Shown: positions 1 to 13,204, numbered from the stretch's first letter. The stretch is 64,000 nt of DNA from Acidimicrobiaceae bacterium (GCA_027451285.1 DAIDJP010000018.1:1-64000); one strand, 5' to 3'. Made by a program: numbers and translations. Notes: a model not told the origin generated them from the letters alone.

Positions 1-655
1 ATCCCGAGACCGAGATCGAGTTCCACTTGGGCATCTCGGCCGCGGTGAAGGCCATGGTGTCGCGCACCAGGCGCATCGACTGGCGCGGGGGGAAGACGAA
101 CTCCTTCTGGGCCTGGTACTCCTTCAAGATGTCGTTCTGCAATGTGCCGCCGAGCGCGGCGCGTGGCACGCCTCTTTCTTCGGCCTGGGCGACGAAGAGC
201 GCGAGCATCACCGCGGCGGGCGAGTTGATGGTCATCGACGTCGTGATGCGCGACAGGTCGATGCCGGCGAAGAGGTCGCGCACGTCGGCGAGGGAGTCAA
301 TGGCCACGCCGCAGCGCCCCACCTCGCCGAGGGACATGGCATCGTCGGAGTCGAGCCCGAGCAGGGTGGGCATGTCAAAGGCCGTCGACAGTCCGGTGCC
401 GCCGGCCGCGATGATCTCGCGAAAGCGCGCGTTGGTGTCGACGGCGGTGCCAAATCCCGCGAACATGCGCATGGTCCAGAGCTTCGAGCGGTACATCGAG
501 GCGTGGATGCCCCGGGTGTAGGGGTAGGCCCCCGGGAACTCGCCATCCTCGGGCCCGTAGACCGGCTCTAAGGGGACTCCCGAGAGGGTCGTGAAGTCGG
601 CGTCGCGCGTGGGCGCCGCGTCGAAGGCCTCGCGCCAGGTCTTGAGGTTACTCAC
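1..655 (-). CDS. acyl-CoA mutase large subunit (methylmalonyl-CoA mutase family), N-terminal part; runs off window start
   Basis: Not in the ORF track because it is open at the window edge. Reverse translation gives [21 protein letters not shown]...[62 protein letters not shown]...[27 protein letters not shown], typical of the mutase family. GTG start at 655 overlaps the stop of the upstream gene (GTGA). Confidence 0.9.
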
Positions 656-1500
656 GTGGACTCCGTTGGCGCGTCCAAACTCTCATCTGCCCTCAAGTCA
701 ACGTCGAGATTAAAGACGGGAGGACGCTTCTCGAGAAATGCATCGATGGCTTCAGAAAGGTCGTGCTGATAGTGCAGAGTCGAAACGGCCCAAAACGACG
801 AGTCCATAGACGCCGTCAGGCTTGACTCCCACGAAGTTGACAGGGCCTTCTTCGTCGCTTCCAGCGCTCGCCAGGGCTTAGCAGCGATCACGCTCGCCAG
901 GCCCACTGCAACATCCAATAATTCCTCGGGTTCGACCGTCCGGCTGACCAGCCCTAAACGAAGAGCCCTCTCTGCTCCGAATACCTCTCCCGTCAGAGCC
1001 ATCTCGGCGGCGACGCCGGAGCCAACCAGGCGGGGTAGGAACCACGTTCCTCCGTTTCCCGGCACCAATCCCATATTGATGTAGGTTTCGCCAAATCTTG
1101 CCGTCGTCGAGGCGATTCGAACGTCGCATGCGAGAGCGAGGTCGAGTCCGCCCGCAGTAGCGCCACCGTTGACAGCGGCGATGAAAACGATCCTTGACGT
1201 CGTGAGTCGACGCGTGATCGGAAATAGGATCCGCGCGTTGAAGGGCTCGCCTGTGCGAATGAGGTCATCACGAAGGTAGTCACGAAAAGCCACGAGGTCG
1301 GCACCCGAACAGAATTGGCGCCCCGCCCCGGTAAGAACAACACACCTAATAGAACGGTCAGGTTCCAGTTCATCAAGAAGTCCTGACAGCATCTCCGCGA
1401 GCTCGGGAACCACTCCATTACCGCGTTCGGGCCGGTTGAGAGTCATCAGTCCAACTCCCGGGGCGACTCGCTCAAAGAGAACAAGGTCTCGCTCGCTCAT
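652..1500 (-). CDS. enoyl-CoA hydratase/isomerase family protein
   Basis: Crotonase fold: [45 protein letters not shown]. Start chosen as [12 protein letters not shown] (ATG at 1500, ATGA overlap with the upstream gene). Confidence 0.88.
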
Positions 1501-3077
1501 GATGACGGCGACGCTCCTCCGGCCATTGTCCGGTCGAAACCCTCCCAGTACCGTGCGCGGACTTCCCGACGAAGCACTTTGCCGTACGCGCTGACGGGCA
1601 ACTCGTTGACAAAGTCGACGACTTTCGGGCACTTGTATCCCGCAAGATGCTCGTGGCAGTACGCGATGAGCTCCTCAGAGGAGACGCTCGACGATTCGTT
1701 GACAACCACGACTGCGCGAACGGCTTCCCCCCAATAGGGATCAGGCACACCGACTACGACTGTTTGGTGCACTTCGGGATGGGTGATCAAGACCGACTCC
1801 ACCTCCGTCGGATAGACGTTGTTCCCTCCAGAGATCACCACGTCTTTTTTCCGGTCGTGGAGGTACAGGAAGCCCGTTGCGTCAAATGCCCCCACGTCTC
1901 CCGTATGTAGCCAGCCATTGTGAAGAGCCTCGTTCGTGGCCACTTCGTCGCGCCAGTACCCGGCCATGACAACGTCGCCCCTCACTAGAACCTCCCCCGA
2001 AACGCCGGGGGCACAGGGAACCCCGTTCTCATCCACGACGACAACCTCGACGTCCGTTCGGGGAATCCCAACCGAACCAAGACGCGGATCATCGGAGTCC
2101 AGGAATCGCGCATGTTGATCGAGAGAGAGAGACGTCGCCGTTATCGGGCACTCACCCTGGCCAAAGATCTGCACAAACACTGATCCAAAGGTCTGAAGCG
2201 CTCGTTTGAGATCGTGCACGTAGATGGGTGCGCCACCGTAGCAAACGGCAACGAGGCTGGTGAGATCCCAGCGGCCGCTCTCAAACTCTTCGATTGAACG
2301 GACTATTTGCGTCGGCGCCATGAAGGCAACGTGAGTCACCCGATGACTCTCGATCAGCTCGAACATGTGTGTTGGTTCGAAACTCAGACGATCCGAGATG
2401 ACGTGCGTCGCCCCTCGAGCAATGCCGGGAAGCGCGACGAGTCCGCTTCCGTGCGAGAGCGGTGCCACGTGGAGAAGGGTGTCATGGGCCTGAATGTTGT
2501 AGACGTCCGCCAAATAGTTCATCGACATCGCCACCAGATTGCGGTGTGTCAGTGTTGCGCCCTTTGGGCGACCGGTCGTCCCGGAGGTGTAGAAAAGCCA
2601 CGCCGGGTCGTCGGGTTCCGGTTCGGCGATGCGTGAGGAGACCTCGGCACTCGCAAGCAAATCTTCGTATTCACTCTGACCACTCGTCAGTGAAATATCA
2701 AAAACTTTCACCGTGGCGTTCTCTAGTGAACTTAAGTGGGCGACTTCGGGATGCGTCGTCGAGTTGTAGACCAGAACTTTCGAGCCCGAATGTTCAACGA
2801 TGTAGTCAACTTCCTTCACGTGCAGCCGGGAGTTCAGGGGGACGACCACGAACCCTCCCAGAAACGCGCCGTGCATGATCTCAAAGACCTCCACGCAGTT
2901 CTGAAGCGTGAAGGCAACTCGGTCGCCTGGGCGCAGTCCCTGGGTGCGGAGGGCGGAAGCGAATCGAAGAGCTCGCTCCGCGAGTTGGCCATACGTCTGA
3001 GACCTAACACCACACGTCAGCGCGATCGAATCCGCTCGCCGTTGAGCTGACTTCAAGAGAAACTGACCAACGTTCAC
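1497..3077 (-). CDS. AMP-dependent acyl-CoA synthetase/ligase
   Basis: LFYTSGTTGRPKGATLTHRN, GWLHTGDVGAFDATGFLYLHDRKKDVVISGGNNVYPTEVE, YGKVLRREVRARY. GTG start at 3077 overlaps the DUF35 stop (GTGA). Confidence 0.92.
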   Translation of the reverse strand: MNVGQFLLKSAQRRADSIALTCGVRSQTYGQLAERALRFASALRTQGLRPGDRVAFTLQNCVEVFEIMHGAFLGGFVVVPLNSRLHVKEVDYIVEHSGSKVLVYNSTTHPEVAHLSSLENATVKVFDISLTSGQSEYEDLLASAEVSSRIAEPEPDDPAWLFYTSGTTGRPKGATLTHRNLVAMSMNYLADVYNIQAHDTLLHVAPLSHGSGLVALPGIARGATHVISDRLSFEPTHMFELIESHRVTHVAFMAPTQIVRSIEEFESGRWDLTSLVAVCYGGAPIYVHDLKRALQTFGSVFVQIFGQGECPITATSLSLDQHARFLDSDDPRLGSVGIPRTDVEVVVVDENGVPCAPGVSGEVLVRGDVVMAGYWRDEVATNEALHNGWLHTGDVGAFDATGFLYLHDRKKDVVISGGNNVYPTEVESVLITHPEVHQTVVVGVPDPYWGEAVRAVVVVNESSSVSSEELIAYCHEHLAGYKCPKVVDFVNELPVSAYGKVLRREVRARYWEGFDRTMAGGASPSS

Positions 3078-3499
3078 GGCTTGGCTCTTTCGTCGTTCGA
3101 TAATGCGACAAACCAGGGCGCCGAACCCTTCGCTCCGGGTGCGGGGGCGGCGAATCGAACCGGAATGTCGCACGCGAAAGAATCCCATTCTCCTTCATCA
3201 TCAGGCGTGAGTCGAACAAGAATTTGCACTCCCTCGCTCAATCGCACAACACCAACCGCGTAAGGGATCTCACCGACGAAGTCACTAGGGCTACCGGCGC
3301 GAATGACCGCGAAACTGGTGAGGACGCCTCTGCCCGATGCGCGAACTAGCGACAGAGAAGAAGATCCGCACTCGGGGCAGCGGTACTTAGGGTACATGAT
3401 GAACGTGTGACACTCCGAACACCTTTGCACGCGCAACTCGCCGCGACTGAGGGCATCGTGCCACTCATGCTCGAATCGTGAATCGAGAATTTCACTCAT
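3074..3499 (-). CDS. Zn-ribbon/OB-fold DUF35 protein
   Basis: CSECHTFIMYPKYRCPECGSSSL zinc ribbon (CxxC-x11-CxxC) followed by an OB-like region; next to a thiolase-fold gene as usual for DUF35. Confidence 0.88.
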   Translation of the reverse strand: MSEILDSRFEHEWHDALSRGELRVQRCSECHTFIMYPKYRCPECGSSSLSLVRASGRGVLTSFAVIRAGSPSDFVGEIPYAVGVVRLSEGVQILVRLTPDDEGEWDSFACDIPVRFAAPAPGAKGSAPWFVALSNDERAKP

Positions 3500-4680
3500 C
3501 AGGTCCTCCGCTCTAGAAGCATGACCTGCGAATCCATGTAACTTCCTCCCGAACCGCCCACCACGGCGCGTTGAATTTCGCGCACTTGGCGCAGCGGTTC
3601 TGCGCGATGCAACAGCTGGCGTATCGCTTCGACCAGCAGTGCGGTCCCTCCACCGACGCCGGTGTGCCCGGCCGAAAGCAGGCCCCCGTTGGTGTTGACT
3701 GGTAGGCGCCCCCCCGGAGAGAACGTACCTGCGGCGAATAGACGCGCAGCTTCACCTACGGGCGCTAGCCCGATTCCCTCGAGGGCGATCGCCAGCACCG
3801 CAGCGTAGGAATCGTAGACCTCGGCGAGTTGAACGTCCTGTGGCTCCCAGCCCGCTTGGTCAAACGCGAGGCGAGCGGCCTCGGGCCAACCCAACACCGC
3901 GAGTTCGGCCTCCTGACCGATGCTGTAGTGCGAGACGACGCCACCCGAACCAGCGAGGGCCACCCATGGTTCACCTCGCATTCGCGCATCGGACTCGCTG
4001 GTCACGACGAAGGCCGCAGCGCCGTCGGCGAGCATCGGACACTCGTACGCGTGCAGTGGATCGGTGACCTTCCGTGACGCGAGAACGGCTTCGACGGTTA
4101 GCGAGCGATCTCGATACATCGCGTTGGGATTGAGGTTCGCCCAATCACGGAGTGCGACGCACACGGCGGCCATCTCTTCTGCGCTCGATCCGCTCTCGTG
4201 CATATAGCGACGCGTGATGAGTGCCCCAATCGCGTTGAAGGTCAAACCAACGGGACGTTCCCACTCACGTGGAATCCCGTAGCCGCTTAGCATGTCAATC
4301 ATCTCCTCGACCGGCGCCGAGCCCCAACGATCGGCCTGCGCGACCAGCACATTGCGGGCGTGGCCCGTAGCCACGAGGCTGGCCGCAATCCGAGCAGCGT
4401 TGTCACTGGTGGAACCGCCGGAGTGGACCATGAAATTGAAATGAGCTCGACGATTGAGACCCAACTCCTCCACCACCCGCGAAAAAATGAGATCCGCTTG
4501 ATCATCGCTCGAATGCAGGCACGGGATCAGTACAACTGCGTCAATGTCTTCCGGGCGAAGTTGGGCGTCACGAATTGCCCGATGCGAGACTTCGACTAGC
4601 GCTCCCATGAATGTGCGATCCGCGAACCGACCCGACGGAATCTCTCCAACGCCGACAAATGCGGCCTGAAGGTCACTCAT
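3499..4680 (-). CDS. thiolase-fold/lipid-transfer (Ltp-like) protein lacking canonical catalytic Cys
   Basis: LPVNTNGGLLSAGHTGVGGGTALLVEAIRQL and FMVHSGGSTSDNAARIAASLVATG place it in the thiolase/Ltp family; positions normally holding Cys are Ser/Gly. Confidence 0.82.
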   Translation of the reverse strand: MSDLQAAFVGVGEIPSGRFADRTFMGALVEVSHRAIRDAQLRPEDIDAVVLIPCLHSSDDQADLIFSRVVEELGLNRRAHFNFMVHSGGSTSDNAARIAASLVATGHARNVLVAQADRWGSAPVEEMIDMLSGYGIPREWERPVGLTFNAIGALITRRYMHESGSSAEEMAAVCVALRDWANLNPNAMYRDRSLTVEAVLASRKVTDPLHAYECPMLADGAAAFVVTSESDARMRGEPWVALAGSGGVVSHYSIGQEAELAVLGWPEAARLAFDQAGWEPQDVQLAEVYDSYAAVLAIALEGIGLAPVGEAARLFAAGTFSPGGRLPVNTNGGLLSAGHTGVGGGTALLVEAIRQLLHRAEPLRQVREIQRAVVGGSGGSYMDSQVMLLERRT

Positions 4681-5144
4681 GATTCCTCACTCTTCGCATT
4701 TCGACGAACCAGTACCTTCCACGTGAACGTCATTACGGACTCCCCCCTTTGATTCACGACGTTGTAAGCGAGGCTGATCTTGCCGAACTCCGGCTTCGAA
4801 CTCGCCTGTGCGTCAATGATCTCCACATTGACGTGCACGGTGTCGCCGGGGCGAACCGGCCTCAGCGCGCGCAGATCATCACATCCGAGAAGTGCCTCGA
4901 CCGAGGTGCCGTACGTACCCGACAACGCGACCAAACCTACGGCCATCGAGAACGTAAGGGGGCCATGAGCAATGCGGCCATTGAACTGAGTTTTACGGGC
5001 GTACTCTTCGTCGACGTGCAATGGGTAGTGGTCGCCAGTGAGCCCTGCAAAAGTGAGAATGTCCGCGACCTCAATCGTGCGACCCGACGTCGTAAATCGA
5101 TCTCCGATCTCATAGTCCTCGAAGTACTCGTGGCTTGCGGTCAC
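4677..5144 (-). CDS. MaoC-like hotdog dehydratase
   Basis: YFEDYEIGDRFTTSGRTIEVADILTFAGLTGDHYPLHVDEEYARKTQFNGRIAHGPLTFSMAVGL is the MaoC hydratase signature. Confidence 0.9.
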   Translation of the reverse strand: MTASHEYFEDYEIGDRFTTSGRTIEVADILTFAGLTGDHYPLHVDEEYARKTQFNGRIAHGPLTFSMAVGLVALSGTYGTSVEALLGCDDLRALRPVRPGDTVHVNVEIIDAQASSKPEFGKISLAYNVVNQRGESVMTFTWKVLVRRNAKSEES

Positions 5145-6277
5145 AGCCCCATCTCCCGAGCGATGATTGTTCGCTGAATCTCGTTAGTACCACCGCCAAC
5201 CATGCCGTGCTTCGCTTCGCGAAAGTAGCGCTCCATGTCATAGACCGGGAGTTGGGCGTATCCCCCAAGTGCCTGCATTCCGTTGAACGCGATCTTGAAC
5301 GCGACATCAGCTGCGAACACTTTGGCCATCGAAACTTCCTTGATAGCGCGTTCGCCACGTGCCATCTTGTCGGCTGCCGCGTAGACAAGCAGACGGGCGG
5401 CCGACAACTCGGTCTCATTCTCGGCCATGCGATGCTTGAGAACCTGGAATGAGGAGAGGGAGCGACCGAACTGTTCGCGTTCTTTCGTGTACTTGATCGT
5501 GTCATCCAGCGCGGTTCTCGCGTTTCCGACGTACGAGGCGGCAAGACCCAGACGCTCGTACTCGAGATGCTCGCCAATGTACTCCCATCCTCGATTGGGT
5601 TCGCCGATAATGTTGCCCTCCGGAACGCGTACGTCGGTCATGAAGAACTCGGTGGTGCCAAGACTCCGACGAACGATTGTCGGCATCTTATGAATTTCCA
5701 GTCCTGGAGTGTCATTGGGCACCAGAATTAGGCTCAGTCCCCGGTGTCGATCTTCTGAAGTTCGCGCCAATATCGTGATGACGGCGCCAGGTAGATGCGC
5801 ACCGGAGCACCAGATCTTGTTCCCGTTGAGGACCCAGTGACCGTCAACGAGCTCGGCCCTGGTTCTCACTGCGGCGGCGTCGGAGCCAGCCTGAGGCTCG
5901 CTGATCGACACGCTGAACTTGCGCCGTCCAGTCAAGTAGTCACTCAAGTAATCCGACTTTTGTTGGTCGGTGCCGTGGTTGACAATGTTCTTCGCCGTAA
6001 ACATCGAGGTCATTACGCACGCGGCGGTATCTAGACTGAACTTTGCCATAGCTTCACAGAAGATCGCGTACATAATCGGGTTTGCCTCTAGTCCCCCAAG
6101 GGACTCAGGGATCAAGAGGCCGAGCCAACCGTTATCTGCAATCTTCTGATAGGCCTCGTCAGGGAACTCTCGGTTCTCATCATGCTCCCGGGTGTACTCG
6201 CGTCCGACCTCTTTATCCATGAAGGAGTGCAGGGTGTCGTGCCATGCCCGTTCTTCATCCGAATGGCGAAAATCCAT
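5141..6277 (-). CDS. acyl-CoA dehydrogenase
   Basis: FSVSISEPQAGSDAAAVRTRAEL, QALGGYAQLPVYDMERYFREAKHGMVGGGTNEIQRTIIAREMGL. Confidence 0.95.
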   Translation of the reverse strand: MDFRHSDEERAWHDTLHSFMDKEVGREYTREHDENREFPDEAYQKIADNGWLGLLIPESLGGLEANPIMYAIFCEAMAKFSLDTAACVMTSMFTAKNIVNHGTDQQKSDYLSDYLTGRRKFSVSISEPQAGSDAAAVRTRAELVDGHWVLNGNKIWCSGAHLPGAVITILARTSEDRHRGLSLILVPNDTPGLEIHKMPTIVRRSLGTTEFFMTDVRVPEGNIIGEPNRGWEYIGEHLEYERLGLAASYVGNARTALDDTIKYTKEREQFGRSLSSFQVLKHRMAENETELSAARLLVYAAADKMARGERAIKEVSMAKVFAADVAFKIAFNGMQALGGYAQLPVYDMERYFREAKHGMVGGGTNEIQRTIIAREMGL

Positions 6278-6321: not shown

Positions 6322-7545
6322 TCAATGAGTGCGCTCCAAAATCGTTACGCTCACGGTTGCTTCATCGCGTTCGAGCACGCCCCCTCCGTTCTGAGCCAAG
6401 CCAAGGCGTGCCTCCGGAACTTGACGCTGCCCAGCCGATCCTCGCAGCTGTTCAGTGAGCTCGACTATCTGCGCGCAACCCGTCGCACCTATTGGATGCC
6501 CTCGGGACAACAAGCCCCCGCTCGAATTGATTGGCATCGTCCCGCCCGGAAGCGTCTGCTCGCGTCGCAAGAGTTCGAACGCACTCCCCGGCGAAGCCAA
6601 TCCCAACTCCTCCATGATGATCAATTCCGCTGGTGCTGCGGCATCGTGCACTTCGGCGAAGTCAATGTCCCCTGGTTCGACACTCGCAAAGGCGTACGCC
6701 CGCTCTCCCGCCACCATCGTGGGCGACACGCCGCCGTCGGGGTTATTGGACGTAACTGTCACAGCCCGTACCCGAATATCAGCTCGAGCCAGTCGTCGTG
6801 CCACGTCTCTCGATGCGACAACAACGGCCGCCGCCCCATCACTGAGTGCCGAACACATCGCGATAGTGAGAGGCGCAGAAATCAGACGGCCGCCCAACAC
6901 CTCTTCGATCGACAGTTCCTTTTGGAACTGTGCTCGAGGATTATGAGATCCGAGGGAGCGACTCTTGACAACGACTCGAGCCAGATCCTCAATCGTGGCT
7001 CCCGTTTGTTCAAGGTACTCGCGTCCCTTCAAGGAATAGTGATCCATGAGTGGCGAGGCGGGGATCATTCCGTCATCTAGCAGTCCCCCGAACGCGTAAC
7101 GTTCAACATACTCATGCATTTCTGGACGTCGCAGGGTGTCTGTTGCAGACGCCAACGCCGCAAACGATCTAGCTTTCTGAGCAATTCTGAGTTGTTCCAC
7201 GCCGATGGCCATTGCAATATCGGCAAAGCCACTCTTGACCGCCATCACCGCAAGGAAGAAGGCAGTGGACGATGACGAGCACGCATTTTCGACGTTTACG
7301 ACAGCAGATCCCAGAAGACCAGTGTTGCGAAGAAGAATCTGGCCGCGAATCATCTCTTGGCCCTGAAGTAGCCCCGCCGCGGCGTTGCCGACATACGCGT
7401 GTTGAATCTCAGTTTTGCCAACGCCGGCATCTAGGAGGGCCAGGGCCACGACCTCCTCAGTCAACTCCACAATTCCGACTCCTCTGCCACTGAAGTTCGT
7501 CATCGCCGTGCCAATCACGTACGCGTCGGTCACATCCAACTCCAA
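6322..7545 (-). CDS. thiolase (SCPx/acetyl-CoA acetyltransferase-like), nucleophilic Cys present
   Basis: VVNVENACSSSSTAFFLAVMAV (Cys nucleophile), MPINSSGGLLSRGHPIGATGCAQIVELTEQLRG. Confidence 0.9.
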   Translation of the reverse strand: MELDVTDAYVIGTAMTNFSGRGVGIVELTEEVVALALLDAGVGKTEIQHAYVGNAAAGLLQGQEMIRGQILLRNTGLLGSAVVNVENACSSSSTAFFLAVMAVKSGFADIAMAIGVEQLRIAQKARSFAALASATDTLRRPEMHEYVERYAFGGLLDDGMIPASPLMDHYSLKGREYLEQTGATIEDLARVVVKSRSLGSHNPRAQFQKELSIEEVLGGRLISAPLTIAMCSALSDGAAAVVVASRDVARRLARADIRVRAVTVTSNNPDGGVSPTMVAGERAYAFASVEPGDIDFAEVHDAAAPAELIIMEELGLASPGSAFELLRREQTLPGGTMPINSSGGLLSRGHPIGATGCAQIVELTEQLRGSAGQRQVPEARLGLAQNGGGVLERDEATVSVTILERTH

Positions 7546-7609: not shown

Positions 7610-8239
7610 TCATCGTGTGACCAAGCCATTGAGAACTGTGTCGGCGAAGAGATCACAAATGACGTCGAGTCGTGGGTCATTGGGCGACAGCCACTCTGCA
7701 GACCAGTTGAGGCTTCCCAATAACACCAGAATCGTCACGTGCTGATCGAGATTCTCGCTGAAATCTCCTGATTGAACTCCTTCACTTATGACGTCGGCAA
7801 AGTACTTCTCGTAGTTGCGACGCTTCTTTCGTACGAGCGTCTGGCTATCTGTGCTCAGGTAGCGCCATTGATGAAAGACCACTTGCGCCCACTGCGGATT
7901 GGCAGCAACGACCCTCAGATGCTCCCTAATCATCGAGCGAAGTCTCTCGCGAGGAGCCAGATTTCGGGGTACCGAATCCACCATCTCAACGAAACGATCA
8001 ATGCCGCTAGAGACGATTTCGAGCAGCATCTCCTCTTTGCCGCCAATGTGCGCGTAGAGGCTGCCCGGAAGGATGCCGACCTGTGTGGCGATGTCGCGCA
8101 CAGTGGTACCGGAATAGCCACGTTCGCCAAAGAGCCGAGTAGCGACCTCGATCATCATTGCCCTAGTGCCGTTCGATGTTCTCTCATCTGAGTTGTGGCT
8201 ACGTCCCGCGTTGCTCGCACCCTTGACGACATCGGTCAC
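7610..8239 (-). CDS. TetR-family transcriptional regulator
   Basis: N-terminal HTH: MIEVATRLFGERGYSGTTVRDIATQVGILPGSLYAHIGGKEEMLLEIV. Confidence 0.93.
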   Translation of the reverse strand: MTDVVKGASNAGRSHNSDERTSNGTRAMMIEVATRLFGERGYSGTTVRDIATQVGILPGSLYAHIGGKEEMLLEIVSSGIDRFVEMVDSVPRNLAPRERLRSMIREHLRVVAANPQWAQVVFHQWRYLSTDSQTLVRKKRRNYEKYFADVISEGVQSGDFSENLDQHVTILVLLGSLNWSAEWLSPNDPRLDVICDLFADTVLNGLVTR

Positions 8240-9420
8240 TGTGCGTGCCCTTCTACTCTGGCGCCCATGGGGTCACCGTCTTCCACTTCGCCCGTCAAGG
8301 TGTGCAACAAGCGCGAGTTGGACGATCCAAGAGTTGGCGGTTTCTGCGTCTTGATCTCCGGTGTCTCAATGGGTAAGCGAACGACGGCGCTCGCGGCCGA
8401 TTCTGAGTTCAAAAGGATTCTGCGTTCTCGCACAAGTGGATGATCCAGCGCTCGATCGAGAGAATTCACGGATGAGGCGGGTATCTCCGCCCGAGTGAGC
8501 ACTTGCTCCAACTCCTCCGAGTTAAATGTTGACGTCACATTCTCCAGCAGTGAGTGAAGTTCGTCACGATGCTGGACCCTGAGGGGCACGCCAAGAAACC
8601 GTTCGTCGACAATGAGCCCCTCGAGACCCAGCGCGCCGCAGAGTCGTTCGAAGATTCGTTGGTTACCCGCTGCGACCATGACCCAGCCGTCGCGCGTACG
8701 AAAGGCCTCGTACGGAGCTGCCATCTCGAATGCCGAACCTTGGGGCTGCGGGACCACGTCGGTGGCCAGCAAATTCAGGATCTGATTCGTCTGGAAGACG
8801 ATGCCCGTATCAATCAGAGCGACTTCAGAAAAGTCACCGACACCTGTCTCACGTCGACGCTGCAACCCGCCGAGAATTGAAATCGCCGCCCACATTCCCG
8901 TGGTCATGTCGATGATGGAGACGGGAACCCTTGACGGCGCCTCTCCTGGCTGGCCGTTTGCGAACATGATTCCGCTGAGCGCCTGAATTACTGGGTCGTA
9001 ACCAGGAAGGTTACGTCCGAGCGGGCCCGAACCAAATGCTGAAATCGAGCAGTAGACCAGGGCCGGATTTACCGCGTGTACATCCTCAAAGCCAAAGCCG
9101 AGGCTTGACAACTTCCCCGGACGCCAACTCTCCACGAGGACATCGGCGGACTTTAGTAACGCCCACATCGCCTCTTGATCAGCAGGCGACTTCATGTCGA
9201 GAACTACGCTGCTCTTTCCTCGATTGTAGGAACGAAACACGGCACCAACACCGTCGATGAGCGGAGGTAATTGGCGACTATCGTCACCAATTGGCGGGCG
9301 CTCGACTTTGATGACGGTCGCACCCAACGTCGCCAGAATTTGAGTGGCGAAGGGTCCAGCCACAACGCTTGTCAGGTCGACAACCATTACGCCGTTCAAC
9401 GTGCTTGCGACGTCACTCAT
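8236..9420 (-). CDS. CaiB/BaiF family CoA-transferase (type III)
   Basis: VMVVDLTSVVAGPFATQILATLGATVIKVERPPIGDDSR, GYDPVIQALSGIM. Start chosen as MSDVASTLNG. Confidence 0.92.
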   Translation of the reverse strand: MSDVASTLNGVMVVDLTSVVAGPFATQILATLGATVIKVERPPIGDDSRQLPPLIDGVGAVFRSYNRGKSSVVLDMKSPADQEAMWALLKSADVLVESWRPGKLSSLGFGFEDVHAVNPALVYCSISAFGSGPLGRNLPGYDPVIQALSGIMFANGQPGEAPSRVPVSIIDMTTGMWAAISILGGLQRRRETGVGDFSEVALIDTGIVFQTNQILNLLATDVVPQPQGSAFEMAAPYEAFRTRDGWVMVAAGNQRIFERLCGALGLEGLIVDERFLGVPLRVQHRDELHSLLENVTSTFNSEELEQVLTRAEIPASSVNSLDRALDHPLVRERRILLNSESAASAVVRLPIETPEIKTQKPPTLGSSNSRLLHTLTGEVEDGDPMGARVEGHAQ

Positions 9421-10528
9421 AGTGTCCCTTGTCGCTCGGACCAGCCCCAACTTCTTCGGTCGGCGGACGAAGATCTCCTTTCGGCCCCCCTCCGCCATCG
9501 ATTAGTAAGTGTCGTTCGCCCTCGGCCAGCTCTTCGTCATAGGAGTTCTCACCGTCAATCGCTCTACGTCGAACCTTCTTGGCGCTCTCCTGACGCCAGA
9601 CTGCGAAACTGACCGCTCCGATCAGGGCGACTCCGTTGAACATTTCATTAATCCACTGTTGACCGGTAACCAATTGAAGTCCCGAAACTCCAATTGCGAG
9701 AACGTATACCGCTAGCACTGATCCCCATACATTGAAGCGTCCCGGACGAAGTTGGGTGGCGCCGAGAAAACAGGCGGCGAATGCAGGTAGTAGGAGAGAC
9801 GGACCGAAGGTCAGTGCGGGACCGCTCGCAGAGCAATACAACACCCCGGCGACGCCGCTTATCGTGGCGGACATCACCATGGACATCCAAACCCACCGGT
9901 CGACCCGAACTCCCGCTAGCTTTGACGCCTCCTTATTCGCACCAATGGCATAGAGATAGCGCCCGAACGGCGTGTGGTCCAAGACCCACCACACGATGAA
10001 GGCACAGATGAATGCGTAGAACACATATGCCTCGAAGCCGCCAACTTGAAACGTGGCGAGGTTATTCCACAAGTGCGACGAGGGGATCAGGGGTTGGCTG
10101 TTGGCGGTGACTATGTCGAGCAGAGCCGCGAGCAGGGTGCTCATGCCCAAAGTGACGATGAAGGAATTCACGTGCCACTTCACGATGAGAAAGCCATTAA
10201 CCATTCCGATGAAGATCGACGATACGAGTGCAAGAGCGATCGACTCGCCCACAGACCAGTGATGGTTGTTTTGCATGACGACCGCAAGGATTCCCGATAA
10301 GTTCGCCACCGCACCAACGGAGAGGTCGAAGTTCCCGCCTATCAACGGAATCAACACCCCAAGTCCGAGCATCATTGTGACCGGCTCTTCATCGGCAATC
10401 GTATGGAGGGTAGACGTCGTGAGAAAAAGATGAGGGATCCAAATCCCAAACACGACGATCAAAAGTCCCGCAAGGTAGAGACCGCTCAAGCGATCCACAC
10501 CAAAGGAAAAACGTCGGATCGTCGTCAC
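9413..10528 (-). CDS. ABC transporter permease, ribose/simple-sugar (RbsC) type
   Basis: Multi-TM; GGNFDLSVGAVANLSGILAVVMQ, FIVTLGMSTLL, PFGRYLYAIGANKEASKLAGVRV are RbsC-like motifs. Confidence 0.9.
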   Translation of the reverse strand: MTTIRRFSFGVDRLSGLYLAGLLIVVFGIWIPHLFLTTSTLHTIADEEPVTMMLGLGVLIPLIGGNFDLSVGAVANLSGILAVVMQNNHHWSVGESIALALVSSIFIGMVNGFLIVKWHVNSFIVTLGMSTLLAALLDIVTANSQPLIPSSHLWNNLATFQVGGFEAYVFYAFICAFIVWWVLDHTPFGRYLYAIGANKEASKLAGVRVDRWVWMSMVMSATISGVAGVLYCSASGPALTFGPSLLLPAFAACFLGATQLRPGRFNVWGSVLAVYVLAIGVSGLQLVTGQQWINEMFNGVALIGAVSFAVWRQESAKKVRRRAIDGENSYDEELAEGERHLLIDGGGGPKGDLRPPTEEVGAGPSDKGHYE

Positions 10529-12096
10529 TGGGCCGCCGCCATCGAATCGTCCACTCCTAGAACCAAGTTCGTAAGAATATCCATTGAAACCTGAGAATGA
10601 TTTACTTCACAGACAATTTGCCCTTCATGCAAGACCAGAACTCGATGACACACCGCGGTGATCTCCTCAAGATCACTAGAACAAATCAATACCGCGGACC
10701 CAGACTTCGCGATATCCAGAATCAACTGATGAATTTCCTCTTTGGCACTCACATCCACACCCTGCGTCGGCTCATCGAGAAGAAAGATCTTCGGGCGGCA
10801 ACGCAACCATTTTGCGAACATCAGCTTCTGTTGGTTGCCTCCGCTAAAGGTAGCAAGTGGTCTTTCCAATCCATCGCGAGGGTGCACGTCAAGACGCTCC
10901 AACCAGACTCGCGCCTCCGCTCGTTCTGTGCGAAGACTGAGCCAGCCCCTTCGCCAGAAGGGGCCAAGGTTCGCCAGAGTCAGGTTCTCTCGTGCTGACA
11001 GATCCATGACTCCACCGTGAACTTTGCGATCAGCAGGGAGAAATGCCATGCCCCGTGCCACGGAAAGGTCAGTACGAGATTGGGGCAGTGTCCGGCCCTC
11101 AATATTGACGTGACCGGCGGTCCTAACCGCCGCACCAAAAATCGAGGCCAGCAGTGCCTCGCGTCCTGATCCAGTGATGCCAACCACTCCAACAATCTCG
11201 CCGGCAGCCACTTGGAGCGAGACCTCGCGGATGGGACCCGCCACCAACTTTCTAACGGTGAGCAGGGCGTTGGCCTCCGATGCAGGCGCCGCGTTACGAA
11301 CGCTCACTTTTCGAATCTCGTGGCCCGAGATGAGCTCCGCAAGGGAGCGCTCGGTCTGATGTCGCACGTCTGATGTCACCACTATGCGACCATCCCTAAT
11401 GACGGTTACTTGATCCGCTACCGCAAAGATTTCCTGCAACCGATGGCTTACGTAGAGAACCCCGACGCCCTGGGCCGCCACGCGTCGCACAATCTTCGCG
11501 AGGTGATCGACGTCTTGACTCGGCATCGTTGCTGTTGGCTCATCCAGAATCAAGAATTTCGCGGGATAGCGTTCGTCACGTTGAAGTGCACGCACCAGCG
11601 CAACGCCCGTTCTCTCGGCCATCGTGAGATCGCCCACTCGATCCGAGGGCTTGAACTTGAGGTCGAGTCGCTCAATCTCCTGCGCGGCGAGAGCCTCTGC
11701 GTAGCGCCTGCGCACCGTTCCCCACCGCGAGGGATAGCCCGATGTCAAACATAGATTGTCGAACACCGTCAAATCACTAATCAGATCCCCGTCTTGTTGG
11801 ATGACTCGACATCCGAGACGATACGACGACTGCTTCGAACCAAGCCGAAGAGGCCTTCCGCCAATCTCCACTGTCCCACCTGGCTCGGGACGATGGTAAC
11901 CCGAAATGATTTTGATGAGCGTCGACTTTCCGGAACCGTTGCCACCGAGAAAAGCACGAACTTCCCCCGGTGCAACCTTGAGATCAACGTTGAAGAGCAC
12001 GCGAACGCCAACAAAATCCTTCGAGAGTCCCTGCACGTCGAGGCTCCATTCGGAGACTCGACGTGCAGGGCCCTGACCAGGCGAGTAGTTATCCAA
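10525..12096 (-). CDS. ABC transporter ATP-binding protein with two NBDs (RbsA type)
   Basis: GGNGSGKSTLIKIISGYHRPEPGG, ILDEPTATMPSQDVDHL, second NBD FSGGNQQKLMFAKWLRCRPKIFLLDEPTQGVDVSAKEEIHQLI. Start uncertain (TTG at 12096 suggested; the ORF track extends upstream through implausible sequence). Confidence 0.88.
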   Translation of the reverse strand: MDNYSPGQGPARRVSEWSLDVQGLSKDFVGVRVLFNVDLKVAPGEVRAFLGGNGSGKSTLIKIISGYHRPEPGGTVEIGGRPLRLGSKQSSYRLGCRVIQQDGDLISDLTVFDNLCLTSGYPSRWGTVRRRYAEALAAQEIERLDLKFKPSDRVGDLTMAERTGVALVRALQRDERYPAKFLILDEPTATMPSQDVDHLAKIVRRVAAQGVGVLYVSHRLQEIFAVADQVTVIRDGRIVVTSDVRHQTERSLAELISGHEIRKVSVRNAAPASEANALLTVRKLVAGPIREVSLQVAAGEIVGVVGITGSGREALLASIFGAAVRTAGHVNIEGRTLPQSRTDLSVARGMAFLPADRKVHGGVMDLSARENLTLANLGPFWRRGWLSLRTERAEARVWLERLDVHPRDGLERPLATFSGGNQQKLMFAKWLRCRPKIFLLDEPTQGVDVSAKEEIHQLILDIAKSGSAVLICSSDLEEITAVCHRVLVLHEGQIVCEVNHSQVSMDILTNLVLGVDDSMAAAQ

Positions 12097-13204
12097 CGTG
12101 CCAGAGTTTCTTGAAAAGACCCCGGAAGTTAGCGGGAATATTCGCAGACTCCGACGCAGACTTTGTGTTGGTCTTAATGAGAAGCTGCTCTGGCATGCCT
12201 CCACCGTCAGGCGCGATGCCCATTCCCTCAAGGTGGCGGGCCTCGGAGTCGATCGCCAACCAACCCAAGTATTGGAAGTTCGTAGGGACGAAGGCGTTTT
12301 CAGTCCCCGCAATGACATCCTGCTCATTCTCGACGGTGGCATCACCACCGGCGATCTTGACGCCAGTGATTCCTGCAGCTTTCAGCGCGGCTGGCAAGGC
12401 TGGGAATATGACTCCATCAGTGGCAACGATGTAGGTAATCGACGGATCCCTCTGAACTGCAGATACAACGGCGGGAGTGATCTGGTTGTTGCCTTGCTCG
12501 GCGGGCGTAGCGTTAAGGGACGTCACAACGCACGCGGGACACAATGACTTGATTCTCGAGTTGAATCCACTTGCCGACTGAGCCAGAAGGCCGAATGCCG
12601 GAACGTTGACTAGCAGAACATGGGCTTTGCCTTTGGAATCACTAGTCACCCAATCTGCCAGGATCGAGCCTTGCATCGCTCCGTCGTCACCGATCGCGGT
12701 GATAACTGAGCCCTTTAGAGGAGTCGGTCCAGTCTCGATCGGGATAATTGACACCTTCGCAGCGTTGAAGGCGGGAATCTCGCTTGCCCAGGACGCCTCA
12801 GGTATCGCGTTGAATGCCACCGCCACTGGCTTGTACAACAGTGCCTGCTTCATTGCGGTCACCAATGTTGCGGGATTCGTCTCGTCAAACGTGAGCTGCT
12901 TGTACGTCCAGCCAATCGCCTTCGCCGCAGCGGTAACACCGACAGCGACATCCTTGCACTGAGGAAACGCACATTGGATGTACACAAACGTCTTGTGCGT
13001 CGGAGCCTTTCTCCTAAGCGGTGTCGTAACGGCAAGGTTCGTTGGCGCTTTCAAATATGGTGTCAGCGCTTGGGTCGCCGCCTTCACGCCCGAAGTCGAG
13101 CCAGCACTACTTACTGTCGCGGTCGTTGCTAGTGCCACTACTGAGACAAGTGAACCAACCAACGCTGGTCGCCATACGCCCCTACCAATCTTCTTCAATT
13201 TCAA
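12089..13204 (-). CDS. sugar-type ABC transporter substrate-binding protein (secreted)
   Basis: N-terminal signal peptide MKLKKIGRGVWRPALVGSLVSVVALATTATVSSAG; periplasmic-binding fold; TTG start preceded by a GGGGGGAAG Shine-Dalgarno-like run. Confidence 0.85.
   Translation of the reverse strand: MKLKKIGRGVWRPALVGSLVSVVALATTATVSSAGSTSGVKAATQALTPYLKAPTNLAVTTPLRRKAPTHKTFVYIQCAFPQCKDVAVGVTAAAKAIGWTYKQLTFDETNPATLVTAMKQALLYKPVAVAFNAIPEASWASEIPAFNAAKVSIIPIETGPTPLKGSVITAIGDDGAMQGSILADWVTSDSKGKAHVLLVNVPAFGLLAQSASGFNSRIKSLCPACVVTSLNATPAEQGNNQITPAVVSAVQRDPSITYIVATDGVIFPALPAALKAAGITGVKIAGGDATVENEQDVIAGTENAFVPTNFQYLGWLAIDSEARHLEGMGIAPDGGGMPEQLLIKTNTKSASESANIPANFRGLFKKLWHVG

Follow-up and report, generated by a model that had tools for sequence, protein, structure and literature searches.

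A Cys-less thiolase-fold protein with separate MaoC and DUF35 partners in an Acidimicrobiaceae operon, a candidate retro-aldolase

Two solutions have been described by which a thiolase became an aldolase, a Tyr-Tyr pair in Ltp2 and a Tyr-Cys pair in Sal. In TcLtp2, which works with ChsH2 (6OK1), Tyr294 is the base and Tyr344 the acid, with His296 as a third residue; in the bile acid aldolase CtSal, which works with CtShy (9MYR), the corresponding residues are the base Tyr302, Gln352 and the acid Cys304, and the exchange Y302F abolished activity (PMC12329534). For tertiary beta-hydroxy acyl-CoAs it is known that a hydratase is coupled to an aldolase, and Shy provides an example of a single-domain MaoC that is able to hydrate alone and to hand its product to the aldolase (PMC11321319). 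Here we describe a related locus in a 64,000-nt contig stretch of an Acidimicrobiaceae bacterium, called the window. Its operon, all genes of which lie on the minus strand, encodes a Cys-less thiolase-fold protein (LTP) between a MaoC hydratase and a DUF35 protein. Judged by its residues and its neighbours, LTP together with DUF35 is probably a retro-aldolase for beta-hydroxyacyl-CoA, fed by the hydratase of the operon. The three genes, and the four codons of LTP taken from the alignment column table, are the following.

3499..4680, minus strand: LTP, 393 aa, the Cys-less thiolase-fold protein and candidate retro-aldolase (its PDB matches cover almost the entire sequence)
3074..3499, minus strand: free-standing DUF35 protein, 141 aa, proposed aldolase partner (zf-ChsH2 and OB_ChsH2_C above cut-off)
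4677..5144, minus strand: single-domain MaoC enoyl-CoA hydratase, 155 aa, proposed maker of the beta-hydroxyacyl-CoA substrate (PF01575, 86.6 bits)
4414..4416, minus strand: codon of Gly89, at the nucleophile (Cys) position
3814..3816, minus strand: codon of Tyr289 in the YDSY motif, proposed catalytic base, equal to TcLtp2 Tyr294 and CtSal Tyr302
3808..3810, minus strand: codon of Ser291, at the position of CtSal Cys304 and TcLtp2 His296
3664..3666, minus strand: codon of His339 in the GHTG motif, proposed general acid or oxyanion residue, at the position of TcLtp2 Tyr344 and CtSal Gln352

The alignment comprised 61 proteins, 58 of which were included in the column table as 46 Cys-less rows and 12 Cys thiolases, with the Sal row listed in its own column. 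The stretch FMVHSGGSTSDN of LTP aligned with the thiolase nucleophile loop and placed Gly89 at the position of the catalytic Cys. This column held Gly in each of the 46 Cys-less rows and Cys in each of the 12 Cys thiolases, and since residues 86-93 (HSGGSTSD) were also invariant across the close clade, Gly89 is neither a sequencing error nor a misalignment. A preliminary description of this DNA had reported a thiolase fold lacking the nucleophile Cys at 3499-4680 and had named, as the result that would overturn its proposal of an aldolase, a Cys appearing at the nucleophile position once the alignment was corrected; the search for such a Cys found none. LTP is therefore unable to act as a classical thiolase, a conclusion that stands on the nucleophile position, where the Cys by which thiolases are recognised is Gly89.

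The same description had also argued from the missing C-terminal Cys, and this argument was rejected. The second thiolase of the operon (P0004), which has its nucleophile Cys in ENACSSSS as had been described, reads QNGGG at the C-terminal Cys site and lacks that Cys, and 7YVY, deposited as a thiolase, is likewise without it. The C-terminal Cys is thus not diagnostic, because a Cys thiolase of the very same operon does without it. P0004 (6322-7545) further carries HDAA where SCP2 thiolases carry HDCF, and has no second catalytic Cys. A better signature is the double exchange of Gly89 and Tyr289, as column 289 held Tyr in 46/46 Cys-less rows and His in 12/12 Cys thiolases.

Tyr289, Ser291 and His339 were invariant in 10/10 members of the close set, and Tyr and His were kept in 21/21 rows of the wider clade of LTP, where residue 291 was Ser or Ala. 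His339 was also found as His in 13/14 members of the 4U4E group. When 15 diverse proteins from the 21-row clade were compared, no more than 44 of the 393 positions were invariant, Tyr289 and His339 included. Residues 302, 304 and 352 of CtSal have been proposed to interact via hydrogen bonds (PMC12329534), and by analogy Tyr289, Ser291 and His339 are plausibly neighbours in the site of LTP. The likeness to Ltp2 drawn earlier thus held for the loss of the nucleophile, for the DUF35 partner, for MaoC and, by sequence alignment, for the first catalytic Tyr (Tyr289 for Tyr294); it failed at the other positions, where LTP has His339 instead of Tyr344 and Ser291 instead of His296, and in the phylogeny, where LTP falls outside the Ltp2 clade.

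In a maximum-likelihood tree of the 61 rows all Cys-less proteins formed one branch (46 rows) against the Cys thiolases, with support 100/100. LTP and nine close relatives made up one branch (100/100) within the 21-row clade (100/100), while Ltp2 with IpfD (100/93) and Sal with 4U4E (96/87) formed separate clades, neither of which contained LTP. Given this separation and identities of 29-31% (29% to Ltp2, 29% to Sal and 31% to 4U4E), LTP is not an orthologue of Ltp2 or of Sal. The closest solved structures include both proven aldolases; the sequence matches in PDB were 4u4e at 2.9e-40, CtSal 9myr at 1.3e-37 and TcLtp2 6ok1 at 1e-32. An AlphaFold2 model made from 12 sequences gave a complete thiolase fold, with a predicted local distance difference test score (pLDDT) of 77.9 and a predicted template modelling score of 0.86. 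As judged from this model the fold is secure. A model built earlier from 8 close sequences reached a pLDDT of only 54 and was set aside. The Foldseek template modelling scores were 0.83 for 7YVY, 0.81 for CtSal 9myr_A, 0.78 for 4U4E and 0.74-0.77 for TcLtp2, and as thiolases and aldolases are ranked alike, the fold cannot decide on the reaction.

The gene order given in the preliminary description, Cys-less thiolase-DUF35-ligase with MaoC just upstream, was recovered with the same open reading frames and coordinates, and it extends to the relatives. A DUF35 gene directly followed the LTP gene in 10/10 close loci and in the 7 wider loci inspected, and the order MaoC-LTP-DUF35 was seen in 8/9 close loci with upstream sequence, LTP's own included, in Actinomycetota as well as in Brucella. 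The exception was G544, without an adjoining MaoC gene; L035 is cut by its contig end and was not among the nine. All eight close loci having the MaoC gene kept its Asp/His motif as TGDxxPLH, and two further relatives had TxDxxPLH. The DUF35 protein consists of a C4 zinc ribbon (C-x2-C-x10-C-x2-C), the ligands of which are conserved, and an OB fold, and it matched the DUF35 of Shy at 4.5e-15 and that of ChsH2 at 2.2e-11. From the adjacency of the genes we infer a complex of LTP and DUF35. A free-standing DUF35 partner as such is not new here, being already known from ChsH4 with Atf1 (PMC10398937) and from IpfE.

Compared with these systems, the locus shares with TcLtp2-ChsH2 the thiolase fold, Gly for Cys, the base Tyr in YDxx, a C4 zinc-ribbon DUF35 and a MaoC hydratase that precedes the aldolase in the order of reactions. 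It differs in the motif (YDHF in TcLtp2) with the two residues already named, and in that DUF35 and MaoC, fused in the MaoC-like ChsH2, are here separate reading frames (3074-3499 and 4677-5144). With CtSal-CtShy it shares Gly for Cys, the base Tyr (YDCY against YDSY), a single-domain catalytic MaoC and a loop without gap around His339/Gln352, but CtSal has the essential Cys304 and Gln352 where LTP has Ser291 and His339, and the DUF35 of Sal has a C3H1 zinc site instead of C4. The best PDB sequence match, the putative thiolase 4U4E from Sphaerobacter thermophilus, has the YDS and His set in common with LTP but a THPGM-YG loop in place of GHTGVGGG, and is placed with Sal. IpfD and IpfE of ibuprofen degradation (pIBU218), thought to release propionyl-CoA (PMC9195938), are likewise a Cys-less thiolase and a free-standing DUF35-like protein with a ligase in the cluster; unlike LTP, IpfD has YDAF and a Tyr at position 339 and groups with Ltp2 on a long branch, and its cluster has a ring dioxygenase and takes an aryl acid as starting compound. 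IpfE (L058, 23229-23627) lacks the zinc-binding cysteines, though they are kept in other DUF35 partners. Atf1 and ChsH4 of Mycolicibacterium neoaurum are also an aldolase and a free-standing DUF35 in one operon, but Atf1 is 56% identical to Sal1 and hence Sal-type and steroid-acting, and the four-gene operon was described without a MaoC gene (PMC10398937). The benzoylsuccinyl-CoA thiolase BbsAB (7PXP) has a thiolase fold and a separate DUF35 subunit as well; unlike LTP it keeps the nucleophile Cys, and its identity to LTP is 25%.

Retro-aldol cleavage is the leading reading because the nucleophile is lost, DUF35 and MaoC are at hand and the base Tyr of Ltp2 and Sal is in place. In the proposed route a branched carboxylic acid would become a CoA ester through the ligase or the CaiB transferase, the ester would be desaturated by the acyl-CoA dehydrogenase, and its beta carbon would be hydrated by MaoC. 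The LTP-DUF35 complex would then cut the beta-hydroxyacyl-CoA into acetyl- or propionyl-CoA and an aldehyde or ketone. In this step Tyr289 would deprotonate the beta-hydroxyl group, and His339, the retained thiolase His, would give a proton back to the enolate or hold the enolate oxygen, with Ser291 between the two. No acyl-enzyme would occur, since the nucleophile is Gly. Such a route would suit a tertiary or crowded beta carbon, where thiolysis of a 3-ketoacyl-CoA is impossible. The residue roles are less certain than the retro-aldol function itself, the Tyr-His pair being the most likely mechanism, and several observations weigh against it or against the reaction as a whole. The variants C304S and C304H of CtSal were inactive (PMC12329534), so that LTP with its Ser291, if an aldolase, needs its acid elsewhere; His339 is the sole invariant candidate that can be named at an equivalent site, and its role is a guess. 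Ser291 is moreover replaced by Ala in some wider relatives, and the loops of Gly89 and His339 (86-89 and 334-343) had pLDDT below 50 in the model, where geometry cannot be judged.

A protein that has lost its nucleophile might instead be a dead pseudo-thiolase, serving as scaffold or regulator for MaoC, DUF35 or P0004, and our literature searches found no assay of the LTP clade. We consider this unlikely: in the close set, whose members reach down to 59% identity, Tyr289, Ser291, His339, Arg178 and the glycine loops do not vary, and a scaffold would need neither the Tyr nor the His that are among the 44 invariant positions. Another reaction independent of Cys, such as forward aldol condensation, retro-Claisen hydrolysis of beta-keto acids or decarboxylation of malonyl-type CoA substrates, is a rather unlikely alternative. 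Several chemistries are known on thiolase folds, the retained His would be compatible with them, and the Trypanosoma brucei relative TbSLP slowly decarboxylates malonyl-CoA; CtSal, however, does not decarboxylate malonyl-CoA (both PMC12329534), and the neighbouring genes stand for acid activation, desaturation and hydration, i.e., for degradation.

A role for LTP as a genuine aldolase of steroid side chains, orthologous to Ltp2 or Sal and working in a steroid-degrading host, would agree with the common fold, Tyr base and DUF35 partner and with close homologues that are mostly Actinomycetota. This role is very improbable in view of the separate clade (100/100), a second catalytic residue unlike both and only 29% identity to each; in addition, an HsaA model had no match above cut-off in the host genome (93.4% complete; other steroid genes were not searched), which is small, 2.03 Mb. 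A steroid substrate is thus not indicated. Finally, a thiolase using another Cys is scarcely credible: LTP does have cysteines 54, 174 and 214, but none of them aligns with a thiolase catalytic position, and Cys214 is frequent in true thiolases too.

With retro-aldol cleavage as the leading reading, the LTP clade points to a third solution besides those of Ltp2 and Sal, with the base Tyr gained and the thiolase His kept, and by its residues the 4U4E group probably shares it. The finding is of interest in that thiolases may have turned into aldolases in one more way, and may have been put to a use apart from steroids. If this is true, many proteins annotated as thiolase or acetyl-CoA acetyltransferase would be aldolases, and chain cleavage at blocked beta positions would extend beyond steroids.

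The catabolic operon spans from 9498 down to the window start, in the order CaiB CoA transferase, TetR, Cys thiolase, acyl-CoA dehydrogenase, MaoC, LTP, DUF35, ligase, crotonase and the 5' part of a mutase gene. From the dehydrogenase to the mutase, stop and start codons overlap by 1-4 nt at each junction, and these genes are therefore translationally coupled. The remaining features are the following.

8236..9498, minus strand: class III (CaiB-type) CoA transferase (PF02515, 356.7 bits)
7610..8239, minus strand: TetR-family regulator (PF00440, PF17932)
6322..7545, minus strand: second thiolase (P0004) with nucleophile Cys, ENACSSSS (groups with Cys thiolases of related clusters)
5141..6277, minus strand: acyl-CoA dehydrogenase (Pfam ACAD domains; 72-84% identity in three related clusters)
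1497..3077, minus strand: AMP-forming acyl-CoA ligase (PF00501, 275.9 bits)
652..1500, minus strand: enoyl-CoA hydratase/isomerase, crotonase family (PF00378, 178.8 bits)
2..655, minus strand: methylmalonyl-CoA mutase gene, 5' part, cut by the contig end (start codon overlaps the crotonase stop, GTGA)
9413..13204, minus strand: ribose-type ABC importer with binding protein, ATPase and permease, upstream of the operon (Peripla_BP_4)

The three importer genes also adjoin the Aeromicrobium cluster (29/40/42% identity). The operon island has a GC content of 0.56-0.58 against 0.69 in the remaining window. A homologue of LTP above 40% identity was found in only 1/36 other searched genomes of the genus (G027, 44%), whereas the close homologues (59-72% identity) come from Pseudonocardia, Sporichthya, Aeromicrobium, a Rhodococcus plasmid and Brucella, mostly Actinomycetota. 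Low GC and patchy distribution are typical of accessory modules that spread by horizontal transfer. The phage collection searched gave no match and hence no phage link.

The best reading of the substrate class is branched acyl-CoAs. A lead comes from a Baeyer-Villiger monooxygenase in the clusters of some relatives, the best solved match of which is OTEMO of camphor degradation (600 bits, 48% identity), followed by phenylacetone monooxygenase at 480 bits. These OTEMO-like type I enzymes, in Rhodococcus sp. 008 (L041, 30621-32258) and Aeromicrobium (L071, 2335-4068), are 88% identical to each other. The Rhodococcus cluster additionally has P450, ferredoxin, ferredoxin reductase, SMP-30, NTF2-like and SDR genes, and a methylmalonyl-CoA-epimerase-like gene below the family cut-off. 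After OTEMO, trimethylpimelyl-CoA is converted to isobutyryl-CoA via poorly characterised steps (PMC6027186), for which a hydratase-aldolase pair of the LTP kind is a testable candidate: a beta-methyl beside a quaternary carbon would block thiolysis, and hydration followed by a retro-aldol cut would solve this. Both the mutase of the operon and the epimerase-like gene of Rhodococcus are in keeping with propionyl- or methylmalonyl-CoA as the final product. It is a tentative possibility, which we would sooner doubt than adopt, that LTP represents a further type of thiolase-fold retro-aldolase, with a Tyr-His pair and on a horizontally moved module, whose substrates would be tertiary 3-hydroxy-3-methyl acyl-CoAs derived from alicyclic or branched compounds; its work would include lower camphor-like steps after an OTEMO-type step. 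No Baeyer-Villiger homologue was found in the host genome, and a full camphor-like route can therefore not be claimed for the host. Literature searches on terpenes, retro-aldol cleavage and DUF35 returned only the steroid and ibuprofen systems. A luciferase-family protein of Pseudonocardia was rejected as 3,6-diketocamphane monooxygenase, its match being weak (2.9e-19) and below those of other luciferase-like proteins.

Cys-less thiolase-DUF35 pairs were also seen near OTEMO-like monooxygenases at L106 (20840-22006), with YDCF and Tyr, and at L108 (8955-10103), with YDSF and His and closest to the 4U4E group; their residue sets suggest wide variation of the second catalytic residue within the Cys-less family. 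Plasmid pSH1 of Sphingobium xenophagum (L107, 17986-22433) carries an OTEMO-like monooxygenase, an LLM-class flavin monooxygenase, a P450 and a ferredoxin in a row, which looks like a camphor-type degradation cluster, and no thiolase-DUF35 pair was found there within 18 kb. As these other neighbourhoods carry different Cys-less proteins or none, the link to OTEMO is a lead only.

The 5' end of the mutase gene in the window (2-655) is nearly duplicated at the start of another contig of genome G000 (C27:2-646, L095), with 97.4% nucleotide identity over 644 bp. Each copy lies at the start of its contig, and the two sequences part at the start codon; the copy in the window is the one coupled to the imported operon. 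The pair reflects either a duplication or an assembly of mixed strains.

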